A DNA stretch of 49,577 nucleotides from Planctomycetota bacterium (GTDB lineage Bacteria; Planctomycetota; Planctomycetia; Pirellulales; Thermoguttaceae), in assembly GCA_030612765.1 (NCBI GenBank), contig JAUWNG010000011.1:1-49577 (forward strand), in the 5' to 3' direction. A model generated the notes under the pieces. It ran no database searches. It was not told the origin of the DNA and saw only the letters and a program-made list of their open reading frames with translations. Made by a program: the position numbers and the translations under genes. Every line of letters starts with the position of its first letter. The stretch's first letter is position 1. This document shows positions 3,002 through 44,873 of this stretch, in pieces.

Positions 3002-6000
3002 ATGAACGACACACTTGCCAATAACGCACACGTCGCAAACGAGACGCCGCTTCCGATGCCGGTTTCGGAAAGACGCTTCGGCGGACGTTATCGGGCCGTT
3101 AAACTGCTCAAGAAGGAACGGGCCGCCGAATATTTCCTGGCCGAGGACACACAAGGCGCCTCGGTCGTGGTCTGTTGCCGGGACTGGTCCAATCTCACCG
3201 CCGGCACAAGGCAACGCATCGAACGCGAAGCAAAAATCCTACAAGACCTCCAGTCTCCCGGGCTGGCCGGGGTGTTGGACATCGGCCAGGACGGCGACAG
3301 TCTCTACGTCGTGCGACCCCAAATCCCCGGCCTCACGCTCCGCCGGCGCCTGCTCGACGGGCCTCTCGATCTCCAAAATACCCTCGCCGTGGGGCAATCC
3401 TTATTTTCGGCACTGGTCGAGCTTCATTCACACGGCGTCCTGCACCACGACATTCGGCCGGCCAATTTGATCGTGGACGCGGAATCCCCGCTGCGCCGCG
3501 CCGTATTGACCGATTTCAGCGTCAATTGTTGTTTCCGTCCCGATGAGCTTTCGGCCGAGGAGTTGATCGAGGCGGCGATTTACCGTTCGCCCGAATACGC
3601 CGGATCGCTGAAATACGACGTCGCCGAACCCTCGGACCTGTACTCGGCGGGCATCGTGCTGTTCGAGTGTCTGGCGGGCCATCCGCCGTTCTCGGGCGAC
3701 AACGTGGGCGACACGTTGCTGCGGCACATGACGGCCCGCGTTCCGGAGCTGCGCAACGTCGGCGGACATGTCCCCCGCGTCATGGACGAGCTGGTGCAAC
3801 GGCTGTTGCACAAGGATCCGCGCGACCGCTACCAGAGCGCCGAGGCGGTGCTGATGGATTTGAATTCCATCATGGAGGCGGCGCGGAGCGGCAAGGCCGA
3901 GCCGTCGTGCGTGGTCGGATGTCACGATCACCGGACGACCTTGACCGAGCCTGCGTTCGTCGGTCGCCAGGGCGAGCTGGAGCAAATCGAGGAGCAGATT
4001 CGGCAGGTCGCTGTCCGGCAGACGGGCCTCGTGTTCTTGGAGGCCGAATCAGGCGGAGGCAAAACGCGGTTCCTGGCCGAAGTCGCCTTACGCGGCGTTC
4101 AAGCGAACATGTGGGTTTTGCATGGCCGCGGACTCGAAATGGTGGGTGGGCGGCCGTTCCAGGTACTCCACGGCATCGTCGAAGACATAGTCGCGGAAGC
4201 TCGATCCAATCCCTCCTTCGCCGAGACCTTGCACGAACGCCTGGGCGATCACGCCAATGCCGTTGGCGCCGTGTTGCCCGAATTGGCTCGGGCGTTGGGG
4301 TGGAAAGAGTCCGCGCCTGCGGGGCCGGAAGGATTTGCCGAGACTTGGAGTATTCAGGCATTGGCCGCCTTCCTCGACGCACTTGGCACCGAGGATCGCC
4401 CGGCCATGATCATCCTGGATGATTGCCAATGGGCCGACGCGACGACCGTCAAACTGATCGCACATTGGCGTTGGGAGCGGGATAATTCGGCCGAAGAAGG
4501 TTCGTCGACGTTGCTGATCGTCGCCTTCCGTTCGGAGGAAGTGGCGGCCGAGCACCCGCTCCGCAAGATTCGTCCCACGCTCCATCTGCGGCTGGCCCTT
4601 TTGGTGGCCGAGGAAATGCAGCACCTCTTGGAGTCCATGGCCGGGCCCCTGCCGGCCGAGGCCGCCGAGGTCGTCTACGGACTTTCCGAGGGTAGTCCGT
4701 TCATGGCGTCCGCCGTGTTGCGCGGGATGGTGGAGTCCGGGGCGCTGCTGGCCGAGCCGACGGGCTGGCGCATCGAGCCACTCGCCTTGGCAGACCTGCA
4801 TTCTTCCAGCCGGGCCGCTGGGTTTTTGGCGCGGCGAATTGAGCTGTTGCCACAAGACACGCTGAAATTTTTGACGATCGGCGCCGTGCTGGGTAAGGAG
4901 TTCGACCTGAATCTTGCGGCCAAGTTCCTGTCATTATCCACCTCCCAAGCCGTCACCACGCTGGCCACGGCCCGCGAGCGGCATCTTGTCTGGATACGGC
5001 CGAATGGAGCGGAATGCATTTTCGTTCACGACAAGATACGCACCGCCCTGCTGGCTCGAGTCACGCCCAAAACCCGCCAAGACTTGCATCTCCGCGTTGC
5101 CCGCCACTTGCAGCAGAAAGATGTCGGCCGGATTTTCGACCTGGCCTACCATTTTGACGCCGGCGGCGACTACGAGTCGGCCTTGCCCTATGCGCTCCAG
5201 GCTGCGGAGCAGGCCCGATCCCAGTACGCCTTGGAAACTGCCGAGGGGCAATACCGGATTGCACTGCGAGGCGCCGATTCGGGTGACAGGGCGACGCGCT
5301 ACGAGATCGCCAAAGGATTGGGCGACGTGCTGATGTTGAGGGGTCACTATAGCGAGGCAGGGGAAGCGTTCCAGACCGCCTTAGGGCTGGTGGACGGGAC
5401 GTTTGCCGAGGCGGAGATCCGCGGCAAACTCGGCGAGCTGGATTTCAAACGCGGTGACATGGCCAATGCGGCTCTCGCCTACCAAGAGGCATTGCGGCTG
5501 CTGGGAAAACCCTTTCCCCAAAAAGCCGTCTTGTTTGTTCTCACGTTTCTATGGGAGTTGGTGGTCCAGGTAACTCATACTTTGTTTCCCCGTCTGTTCG
5601 TGAGCCGGCACAATCGAATACCGACGAAACCGGAATTGCTGCGTCTTCAACTGCGCACCCGGCTGGCGTTCGCCTACTGGTTCACGCGAGGTAAAGTGCA
5701 AGCGTTTTCGGCACACTTGGTGGACATGAACTTCGCCGAACGCTGTGCGCCAAGCCTGGAGTTGGCCCATATCTACTCCTCGCACGCCATGGCAATGACT
5801 CTGGTTGGCTGGTATAGCCGGGGGCTTGCTTACGCCCGGAAATCCCTGGACATTCGCCGCTCCTTGAGCGACCTCTGGGGCCAGGGGCAATCGCTGAGCT
5901 TCTATGGCTGTATACTGTATGCGGCCTCGCGGTTCAACGAGTGCATGGACAAGTGCCACGAAGCGATGCGCCTGCTCGAACGTACAGGCGACTATTGGGA

Positions 6001-11191: not shown

Positions 11192-11254
11192 TTTAGCCGC
11201 CGCGTCCACGCGGCGCGGAGTTGCACGTTCCCGGCGTGGACGCCGGGGCTAAAC
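11191..11254. repeat. TTTAGCC palindromic repeat, copy A
   Basis: The element begins GTTTAGCCGCCGCGTCCACG and ends CGTGGACGCCGGGGCTAAAC, forming imperfect inverted arms around a short centre. Related copies lie at 30927-31007 and 43469-43555. It fills the gap between tig and clpP1 and would form an RNA hairpin between the two cistrons. Confidence 0.7.
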
Positions 11255-30838: not shown

Positions 30839-31071
30839 GGAAAGAAAAGGGAAGAGAGAGGAGAGAAGAGGGAAACGGACAGCACGGCTTAATAAATGAC
30901 CATGCTTGATTTCAGGAAAATACTCGTTTAGCCCCGGCGTCCACGCCGGGGGCACAACACAGCGGTAACAAGGCCATTTGGTCCCGGCGTGGACGCCGGG
31001 GCTAAACAAGCGGCATACTCCTGAAATCTTCCCTTTTCTCTCCTCTCTCTTTTCTCTTCCCTCCTCTCTAC
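30838..31071. repeat. Repeat-filled gap: purine heptamers, TTTAGCC palindrome copy B, pyrimidine heptamers
   Basis: A purine-rich array with a 7-bp period (GAAGAGA, GAGGAGA, GAAGAGG; 30838-30875) is followed by TTTAGCC palindrome copy B (30927-31007). That begins TTTAGCCCCGGCGTCCACGC and ends with the inverse CGGCGTGGACGCCGGGGCTAAA. A pyrimidine-rich array (31028-31070) mirrors the first. The outer arrays are roughly complementary, so the whole gap can fold back on itself. No gene is present. Confidence 0.7.
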
Positions 31072-43147: not shown

Positions 43148-43619
43148 GGCTGACGGTCCTTTCGAGAAATGGTTGTATTGATGGCGTGACGGGAATGTCT
43201 TAACGGGAGGCTAATGATTTACCTTGGCGCTGTCAACCACCCGCTACGTCGCGGAAGAGCCGCTTGCGGCTTCGCAACCAGCGCCTGGTCGATAAACGTT
43301 GTCTCGAACTCAGGTTCCAATATTCCTCGCCGCGCCCCGAATTACGTATATCCAGGGAAACTATCCCCGCCCCATCGGCAAGCGATTTCCGGAAAGCTTC
43401 CAATAACGAGGGCCGTGTGGTACACTGCCCCCAGCAAAGTTGACTTGCGTGATATTGGGGGGATACCGCTTGTTTAGCCCCGGCGTCCACGCCGGGTGCG
43501 CAACATAACGGGAAAGCCATTTGTTCCCGGCGTGGACGCCGGGGCTAAACAAGCTTGCCCGGAATCACGTAAGTATATTCGGCACAGACTTCGGAACCGA
43601 GAACTGAGGATCACAGCCG
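43148..43619. other. Intergenic region with repeats; probable divergent promoters
   Basis: No gene is supported. It contains the 20-bp AGCCGCTTGCGG motif (43258-43277) and the TTTAGCC palindrome copy C (43469-43555). Promoters for the sugar operon (leftward) and the secretion operon (rightward) must lie here, but none is obvious. Confidence 0.5.
43469..43555. repeat. TTTAGCC palindromic repeat, copy C
   Basis: The outer arms GCTTGTTTAGCCCCGGCGTC and the inverse ending GACGCCGGGGCTAAACAAGC are essentially perfect. The centre (GCGCAAC...GCCATTTG) resembles that of copy B at 30927-31007, so the whole element, not only its arms, is conserved. Confidence 0.8.
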
Positions 43620-44873
43620 ATGCCGCATCCAGTGGGCGACACCCTTGAGTTCAAGCTTCAAGGTCTTGACCCGGACCTGCCCGACTATGCTCCTCAATGC
43701 GTCGAGGCCGTGCTGGCCGCCGCGCATGAAGCCGGGGCCACCGACGTCCATCTGCAACCGACCGGCGCGGCGTTGGAGTTGAAGTTCCGCGTCGACGGCG
43801 TGCTGTTGCCCGCGGCCGCGCTGCCAGCCGGCGTCGCCGGAAACGTCATCGCCCGGCTGAAAGTGTTGGCCGGCCTGCTGACCTACCACACCGACCGTCC
43901 GCAGGAAGGACGCATCGTAAGACAGGTTGCCAACCTGTCCCACGGTAAAACAAGACAGATTGCCAACCTGTCCCACTCCGAAGTCGAGATGCGCGTCTGC
44001 ACCTATCCGACCTTGCACGGTGAGCGGGCCGTGGTGCGGCTCTTCGCCGGCGCGGGGCGATACCAACGTCTCGACGATCTCGGTCTGCCGGAAGACACGG
44101 TCGGGCCGCTGCAAAAACTGTTGGGCGAGACCTCGGGCGCGATACTCGTCTCCGGCCCCGCCGGCAGCGGAAAAACCACCACCGTCTATGCCTGCCTCCG
44201 CGAGATCGCCCGGCGTTCCGCGGGCGCGAGGAGCCTCGTCTCGATCGAAGACCCGGTCGAGGTGGCGGTCGATGGCGTGGCCCAATCGCAGATTCATCAG
44301 CCATCGGGCCTGGACCTGGCCGCCGGATTGCGGTTCCTCATGCGCCAGGATCCCGAGGTTATCATGGTGGGCGAAATCCGCGACCGCACCACCGCCGAGG
44401 AAGCGCTCCGGGCATCGCTGACCGGACACCTCGTGCTGAGCACCTTCCACGCCGGAAGCGCCGCCGAGACCATCGGCCGGCTCTCCGACATGGGCATCGA
44501 GCCTTACGTGCTCCGTAGCGGAGTGTTGGCGATACTGAATCAACGTCTGTTGCGGCGATTGTGTACTTGTGCCGAGCCGAGCGAAAGGCCGGAAGACCGG
44601 CTCGGGCTGGACGTTCGGCGGGCGATGGTCCCGCGCGGCTGCGCCGAGTGCGGACAGACCGGATATCGAGGGCGGTTCCTGCTGGTCGAGGTGCTCGTGC
44701 TCTCGCGCAGCGAACTGGCTCGGGCCGTACTCGACCGCCGCGATACGCCGACCATCGAGCGGTTGGCGGCCTCCTCGGGCATGATCGGCCGCTGGTCGAG
44801 GGCCTATCGAGCCGTAGATCAAGGACTGACCAGTTCGGCCGAAGTCCGTCGCGTACTGGGGTTTTCCACGTAA
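43620..44873 (+). CDS. GspE/PilB-type secretion or pilus-assembly ATPase
   Basis: A 417-residue traffic ATPase that powers pseudopilus or pilus assembly. It lacks the long GspE N-terminal domain. It has ATDVHLQPTGAALELKFRVDG, Walker A SGPAGSGKTTT (Lys185), the Asp box SIEDPVE, Walker B PEVIMVGEIRD, the His box LTGHLVLSTFHAG and a C-terminal tetracysteine zinc motif (LCTC, then CAECGQTGYRGR). Residues ~100-121 (RQVANLSHGKTRQIANLSHS) are an in-frame insertion of a dispersed repeat between two conserved strands (RPQEGRI and EVEMRV). It is the first gene of a six-gene operon with three GspF-like proteins and two prepilins. Confidence 0.93.
   Translation: MPHPVGDTLEFKLQGLDPDLPDYAPQCVEAVLAAAHEAGATDVHLQPTGAALELKFRVDGVLLPAAALPAGVAGNVIARLKVLAGLLTYHTDRPQEGRIVRQVANLSHGKTRQIANLSHSEVEMRVCTYPTLHGERAVVRLFAGAGRYQRLDDLGLPEDTVGPLQKLLGETSGAILVSGPAGSGKTTTVYACLREIARRSAGARSLVSIEDPVEVAVDGVAQSQIHQPSGLDLAAGLRFLMRQDPEVIMVGEIRDRTTAEEALRASLTGHLVLSTFHAGSAAETIGRLSDMGIEPYVLRSGVLAILNQRLLRRLCTCAEPSERPEDRLGLDVRRAMVPRGCAECGQTGYRGRFLLVEVLVLSRSELARAVLDRRDTPTIERLAASSGMIGRWSRAYRAVDQGLTSSAEVRRVLGFST
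43918..43980 (+). repeat. Tandem ACAGGTTGCCAACCTGT repeat inside the ATPase gene
   Basis: Two direct copies of AAGACAGGTTGCCAACCTGT-CCCAC (the second with one change) lie 30 bases apart. Each is a perfect or near-perfect hairpin (ACAGGTTG/CAACCTGT). They keep the reading frame and add about 22 residues to the ATPase. Confidence 0.8.

Follow-up and report, generated by a model that had tools for sequence, protein, structure and literature searches.

The 49,577-nucleotide stretch of DNA analysed here (the window) is positions 1 to 49,577 of contig JAUWNG010000011.1 from a Planctomycetota bacterium (Pirellulales; Thermoguttaceae; assembly GCA_030612765.1). It carries a gene for a secretion ATPase of the T2SSE family (GspE/PilB-like). 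A segment inside this gene is very probably a pair of head-to-tail repetitive extragenic palindromic (REP) elements of the GTAG-class, double-foot type, which belong to a family spread through the genome and are tolerated by the protein as a loop. An earlier note on this DNA had described two tandem hairpin-repeat copies in the ATPase, and both are present. The repeat unit, given there as 25 bp, is 27 bp, and the segment, placed at 43918-43980, spans 43917-43976. The features are as follows.

43620..44873, + strand: T2SSE-family (GspE/PilB-like) ATPase, 417 amino acids (open reading frame (ORF) call, PF00437), host of both REP copies
43917..43943, + strand: REP copy 1, GTAAGACAGGTTGCCAACCTGTCCCAC, translated V-R-Q-V-A-N-L-S-H (covariance model R1, 47.6 bits, E 9.5e-12)
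43944..43949, + strand: 6-bp spacer between the REP copies, Gly-Lys, giving a 33-bp (11-codon) tandem period
43950..43976, + strand: REP copy 2, ACAAGACAGATTGCCAACCTGTCCCAC, translated T-R-Q-I-A-N-L-S-H (R1, 37.1 bits, E 3.6e-8)

Two REP copies in the ATPase gene

The two copies are direct repeats in the same orientation, 33 bp or 11 codons apart from start to start, and are read in the ATPase frame as VRQVANLSH-GK-TRQIANLSH. The reading frame is kept throughout the ORF, as had been claimed. Copy 1 keeps an intact 17-bp core and folds well as single-stranded DNA (z = -4.28; 0 of 200 shuffles as good). Copy 2 has lost the GTAG foot, has one altered stem base, and forms a weaker hairpin (z = -1.80; 8 of 200 shuffles as good). 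The feet are degenerate in both copies, GTAA in copy 1 and ACAA in copy 2. When the window was scanned with up to three mismatches, only these two copies were matched (four strand matches); 100 shuffled windows gave a mean of 0.45 and at most three matches, none reaching four.

The host protein matched PF00437 (T2SSE) with 298.8 bits (E 5.6e-89), and its best PDB relatives, including those from Foldseek, were PilF, PilB, and GspE. The motifs GPAGSGKTT, EDPVE, and GEIRD are present, including the Walker motif expected of T2SSE proteins. The earlier label "GspE-like" is kept in the sense of GspE/PilB-like only, because the protein scored 336 bits against the threshold of 630 bits of the GspE equivalog TIGR02533. 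The gene is intact and under purifying selection as a whole: comparison with the congener G225 by a Nei-Gojobori-type script gave a ratio of nonsynonymous to synonymous substitution rates (dN/dS) of 0.22 over 400 codons, a value that averages both lineages and is not dated from the insertion.

The segment is absent from all 19 orthologues (L048-L066, the best-matching homologues in other genomes) and from all 10 more distant T2SSE paralogues (L067-L076); these loci came from a search of 40 genomes, the own genome included. This check had been proposed in the earlier note, and its outcome is the one foreseen there. The orthologue of G225, 79% identical, reads GRV-RLPQD-EIEMRV, where the ATPase here reads GRI-VRQVANLSHGKTRQIANLSHS-EVEMRV. 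The loop has 21 residues compared with 5 in G225, so that the net gain is 16 residues (48 bases) rather than the roughly 22 first estimated. The length of this turn varies among the ATPase relatives. L058 and L060 carry other, unrelated extensions at this place, and the turn therefore tolerates changes in length. AlphaFold, run with 19 sequences, gave a mean predicted local distance difference test (pLDDT) score of 88.5, with values below 50 for residues 105-119, which lie between two strands. The structure alignment (19 rows) omits L058 and L059, which have stops in their coordinates, and L053, L060, L061, L063, L067-L070, and L072; all of the omitted loci are in the loop comparison. The REP-coded insert is thus predicted to form a disordered loop at a turn of variable length. 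A native turn-length variant that resembles a REP by chance would be in line with the longer turns of some orthologues at this place, but its probability is negligible: both copies match the 27-bp consensus at the E values listed above, and the genomic copy number refutes it.

The earlier note had called the insert exapted. A role of the loop, such as contact between the ATPase and its platform or a regulator, would agree with an in-frame insert in a gene under purifying selection and with the core still intact in copy 1. We regard such a role as very unlikely, since the loop is predicted to be disordered, the turn varies in length among orthologues, copy 2 has drifted, and the genome encodes the same peptide in many unrelated proteins, which speaks against any specific role. 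Nothing shows use of the loop, and predicted disorder at a variable turn points to a segment that is tolerated rather than recruited. Most likely, the 21 residues have no function in the ATPase.

The REP family and its in-frame copies

The family consensus is GTAGGACAGGTTGNCAACCTGTCCCAC, 27 bp long, and nothing is conserved outside these 27 bp in 50 copies. The copies were taken from stretches around listed core places and oriented by their ends; 8 of the 50 score equally in both directions. The element consists of a 5' GTAG foot, a hairpin stem (GACAGGTT/AACCTGTC), and a 3' CCAC foot. The foot bases are conserved in 47 (G), 47 (T), 49 (A), and 44 (G) of the 50 copies. An A.C mismatch at the third foot position yields the tag GTAG on one strand and GTGG on the other, the layout termed a double-foot REP in PMC6006769. 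The unit equals exactly nine codons, and of its reading frames only one is always closed, by a TAG or TAA in the foot; therefore, the REP is often translatable.

In the own genome, a draft metagenome-assembled genome (MAG) of 3.97 Mb in 228 contigs (87.6% complete), the 17-bp core ACAGGTTGNCAACCTGT has 76 exact matches, and a reversed-pattern control has none. Model R1, built from 34 elements, gave 161 strand-hits, most copies being matched on both strands. Mapping covered the window and 57 stretches around the listed places, which are part of all R1 strand-hits, and placed 94 copies at 67 sites, most of them outside genes. A window match at 5123 (19/26) was dropped as chance, which reduced the set from 68 sites and 95 copies. 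The claim of a dispersed repeat is thus borne out. A short hairpin-forming palindrome (20-40 bp) with a GTAG end and many dispersed copies mainly outside genes is what characterizes GTAG-class REPs, and all of these traits are found here.

At 19 of the 67 sites, the sequence is coding in the same frame on both sides, with no stop through the REP (codon-score script). Two more sites, L150_2524 (prepilin-like start, read by eye) and L139, are also in frame. At least 21 of the 67 sites are thus intragenic and in frame, that is, at least 20 besides the ATPase. The supposed rarity of such inserts in core ATPases does not hold in this genome, in which one of the hosts is the F1 ATPase gamma subunit. 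Host genes were assigned by Pfam or NCBIfam. Those with an in-frame REP are:

L017: F1 gamma (F1 ATPase gamma subunit)
L018: 6-phosphogluconate dehydrogenase, two separate insertions
L018, 6474-6500: phosphofructokinase
L018: GlgX
L140: TsaB
L148, 1528-1680: glycosyltransferase, four tandem 42-bp REP units
L154: glycosyltransferase, three tandem copies
L150: MFS protein
L155: VIT/VWA protein
L013: MG2 protein
L038: response regulator
L146: LptD_N protein
L027: GH38/GH57-like protein
L032: gene without family match

Two further hosts are:

L137: glycerate 2-kinase, two REPs (below the NCBIfam cut-off; Pfam DUF4147 and MOFRL)
L031: ORF between amidohydrolase and IPP-transferase domains, three copies; gene boundary unsure

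Within genes, 8 of 8 tandem spacings are multiples of three; outside them, 10 of 19 are (one-sided Fisher p 0.020, with the caveat that spacings from the same array are not independent). The frame encoding V-G-Q-V is used at 9 of 19 gene sites, which differs from equal use of the five open frames (p = 0.007). This preference vanishes when both orientations are pooled (p = 0.33), and the test was chosen post hoc; hence, it is not relied on.

The history of the sites was read against two congeners, G094 and the more distant G225. Among 26 mostly noncoding sites, 10 are filled at the same place in G094 and nearly unchanged (L007_2249, L009, L016, L021, L022, L026, L143, L144, L149, and L156). L034 and L141 share the REP with G094 and have extra sequence in addition. 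Among gene sites, site 1 of 6-phosphogluconate dehydrogenase carries the REP here and in G094 but not in G225. Six others have it in this genome alone: site 2 of the same gene, phosphofructokinase, GlgX, L139, L146, and L155. At L013, the REP is present here and in G225, with an empty site in G094. Tandem number also varies, with four copies at L148 here and one in G094 (an intragenic change in copy number), and one at L038 here and two in G094. For the ATPase gene, no match to the flanks was found among the G094 loci examined, and the best T2SSE matches in G094 are at paralogue level only, so that the insertion may lie on either side of the split from G094.

These comparisons also bear on the assembly. 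A draft MAG in 228 contigs at 87.6% completeness could contain misjoined or collapsed repeats, but an artefact of this kind is highly improbable here. Both flanks of the segment align to one continuous congener gene (75% and 81% DNA identity), the array is short, and many other copies lie at the same places in G094, an independent MAG.

Net gains over the empty relative, as read from pairwise alignments and dependent on them, are +9 for phosphofructokinase and L155, +21 and +24 for the two dehydrogenase sites, +24 for L146 and L137_1525, +27 for L139, +42 for GlgX and L038, and +48 for the ATPase (two copies). All ten are multiples of three. At the phosphofructokinase site, the REP-free congeners already have a REP-like VGDLGE stretch (GTCGGCGACCTG compared with the REP's GTTGGCAACCTG), as if similar sequence had been replaced. 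REP copies thus seem often to replace a few host codons or to bring some along. At the noncoding site L015, the gain is 29 bases and CC stands on either side, consistent with an insertion that duplicated 2 bp.

At L005 (1530-1586), an inverted REP pair lies between two neighbouring ABC-transporter genes (assigned by eye; no family search was made). L005 was considered as a disrupted gene and dropped, the GTAG foot being the TAG stop of the upstream gene. The window also contains a second REP/REPIN-like family, GTTTAGCCCCGGCGTCCACGCCGGG, at 43472-43550, 30926-31007, and 11230-11254, often as inverted pairs; with up to three mismatches allowed, the genome has 46 matches to it in forward and 42 in reverse orientation. 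In G094, a palindrome related to it is found close to a Y1 transposase (L090). An element of about 90 bp with CACTGCTGG...CCAGCAGTG palindromes at both ends was seen near L024 and at about two dozen places in G094 (query positions 1711-1807).

Distribution and the search for a mobilising enzyme

The 17-bp core occurs in 8 of 296 genomes in an even sample of the order, the own genome included. The counts are 76, 37, and 8 in one genus, 35 and 2 in two others of the family, and 142 (G275), 6, and 1 in two other families. Searching the contigs of GTDB genomes for exact matches to the 27-mer returned 45 stretches, of which CSMAG_2480 (G094) has 25, Zod_Metabat.711 (G079) 13, and Zod_Metabat.393 (G225) 2. 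The 27-mer occurs in 1 of 392 genomes of a sample of the phylum, a figure that is no measure of the true range because the congeners lie outside the sample. The remaining five stretches are, unexpectedly, in three MAGs that their depositors titled Chloroflexi or Anaerolineales, with 14, 5, and 1 cores.

In two of the Chloroflexi MAGs, an in-frame REP lies at the same place in a protein (L301, variant; L308, exact) that we take, from its Pfam domains, to be NuoG. The REP or a close variant is also in frame at the same place in a protein presumed on the same grounds to be HdrA/FlpD-like (L305 and L312). Further close variants are in frame in L311, a presumed PheT, and in L303, whose protein combines SHMT and GCV_T domains. 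A stray planctomycete contig is disfavoured because two MAGs share the insertion in the same genes. Viral contigs gave no match to the 27-mer pattern and hence no support for a viral vehicle.

On our preferred reading, that of a mobile REP tolerated in the ATPase, the family would have spread through the planctomycete genome, and a copy would have entered the ATPase gene at a beta-hairpin turn in the lineage of this species. Tandem duplication of the REP with its spacer (33 bp, 11 codons) could then have produced the present pair. Selection would have purged harmful insertions and spared those placed in loops that tolerate them, in this case a disordered and presumably neutral loop of 21 residues. 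Mobilisation would be due to a REP-associated tyrosine transposase (RAYT) acting on single-stranded hairpins.

Wherever the contig was long enough, Y1_Tnp loci were viewed together with at least about 1 kb of flanking sequence. A Chloroflexi MAG (G686, locus L322) provides the best candidate for a cognate RAYT: there, a Y1_Tnp gene of 216 amino acids scored 90 bits against NF047646 REP_Tyr_transpos (cut-off 80). It sits between the hairpins GTAGGACAGGTTGATAACCTGTCC, GTAGGACAGGATGGTATCCTGTCC, and GTAGGTCAGGATGATATCCTGACC, which are close variants of the REP, and adjoins a phosphoenolpyruvate carboxykinase gene whose C-terminus is a REP-coded VGQVDNLSR. Variant stems thus flank a transposase gene, as in a REPtron, at this locus of one Chloroflexi MAG, and no planctomycete Y1 locus examined is immediately flanked in this way. 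We infer the link between the L322 enzyme and the planctomycete copies.

Several observations weigh against spread by a transposase followed by tolerance. None of the Y1_Tnp loci in the own genome (9/9), G094 (17/17), or G079 (13/13) is immediately flanked by this REP. Both loci of G275 lack it in their flanks despite the 142 cores of that genome. Neither of the two loci of G225 is immediately flanked; one of them, L081, has a REP about 1 kb off and is itself flanked by another palindrome. A gain of exactly 27 bp was found at only one of ten comparable gene sites, the others showing replacement or extra bases that simple transposition does not predict. The averaged, undated dN/dS has been given above.

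Part of this evidence would agree with DNA repair or template switching that patches the REP over similar or broken DNA and replaces host codons. Net gains from +9 to +48 with only one of exactly +27, the REP-like stretch at the phosphofructokinase site of the congeners, and the lack of immediately flanking REPs at the planctomycete Y1 transposases examined are all in its favour. This route is possible, but we think it unlikely: gene sites are filtered by selection, later small deletions could mimic the picture, L015 fits insertion with a 2-bp duplication, and a RAYT with matching REPs is present in a Chloroflexi MAG.

At the Y1_Tnp matches viewed in three further genomes, no REP copy was seen (8 of 12 matches in G072, 4 of 4 in G135, and 1 of 1 in G251). 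Two weak REP matches near Y1_Tnp, at L091 and L096 (18-19/26), were attributed to chance. When the ORFs of REP-bearing loci were searched with phmmer for Y1 transposases, none was found, and a control run recovered the queries themselves. The RAYTs of the own genome were rejected as the cognate enzyme. Within this genome, the closest homologue of the Chloroflexi RAYT (E 1.8e-14) is the Y1_Tnp gene at L045 (1402-2104; G000:C42). It is flanked by three GTAGGGTGGGACAAGCG...GTCCCACC hairpins and looks like the REPtron of a third GTAG family. The Y1 loci L081, L086, and L095 are flanked by CCCAGGGC palindromes.

Known palindromic repeats and implications

Intragenic copies of GTAG REPs were described in 2013 (PMC3733652). 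The REPs in that paper resemble the present one in being palindromes of 20-40 bp with GTAG at one end, high in copy number, and mostly intergenic. Some are intragenic, more than half of these inserts being dimers or groups that code for 20-30 amino acids, and clusters include flanking DNA. The core of the present REP has no match in the searched main text of PMC3733652, figures and supplements lying outside the search. Double-foot REPs were reported in 2018 (PMC6006769). In that paper, REPs of TnpA-REP subclass 2.4 share the 5' GT[AG]G and 3' C[TC]AC feet around one hairpin, and also occur as in-frame coding insertions, there in the tnpA-REP genes themselves; they differ in that no cognate tnpA-REP was found in the planctomycetes examined here.

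The earlier note had likened the insert to Rickettsia palindromic elements (RPEs). The likeness stands in that a palindromic repeat is kept in frame inside many unrelated genes. RPEs are described as about 150 bp long (PMC10969869) and found in Rickettsia, whereas the unit here is 27 bp, of the GTAG class, and in Pirellulales. GTAG-class REPs are the closer known kind. In PMC3733652, RPE-4 and RPE-6 are themselves named CGTC-class REPs. Palindromic amphipathic repeat coding elements (PARCELs), as described in PMC2996958, are also coding sequences with dyad symmetry and a patchy distribution across distant clades. They are arrays of 25-residue amphipathic repeats in ORFs of no assigned function and in membrane proteins, whereas the coded unit here has 9 residues (tandem unit 11) and lies in known enzymes; the present repeat is not a PARCEL. 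No paper turned up when the open literature was string-searched for the repeat and the peptides it encodes. Since GTAG REPs inside genes and the RPEs of Rickettsia are already in the literature, the kind itself is known. What is somewhat new is that two phyla share one REP, that its unit measures exactly nine codons, and that it seems to replace host codons at some sites.

A bolder view is that the REP is a protein-tolerable nine-codon cassette, its DNA selected for translatability, which passes from one phylum to another, has entered the loops of core enzymes time and again in one preferred frame (V-G-Q-V-x-N-L-S-H/Y), and overwrites a few host codons without a clean insertion. We hold this view to be doubtful.

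With no matching transposase in the copy-richest genomes, what moves these REPs becomes a testable question. Because two phyla share the identical 27-mer, it offers a test of REP transfer between distant hosts. Two congeners, one about 95% identical in DNA over these genes and the other more distant, allow empty and filled sites to be set side by side for each gene, as in 6-phosphogluconate dehydrogenase and phosphofructokinase. Together, the sites form a clean collection of cases for studying how short selfish hairpins turn into protein sequence.
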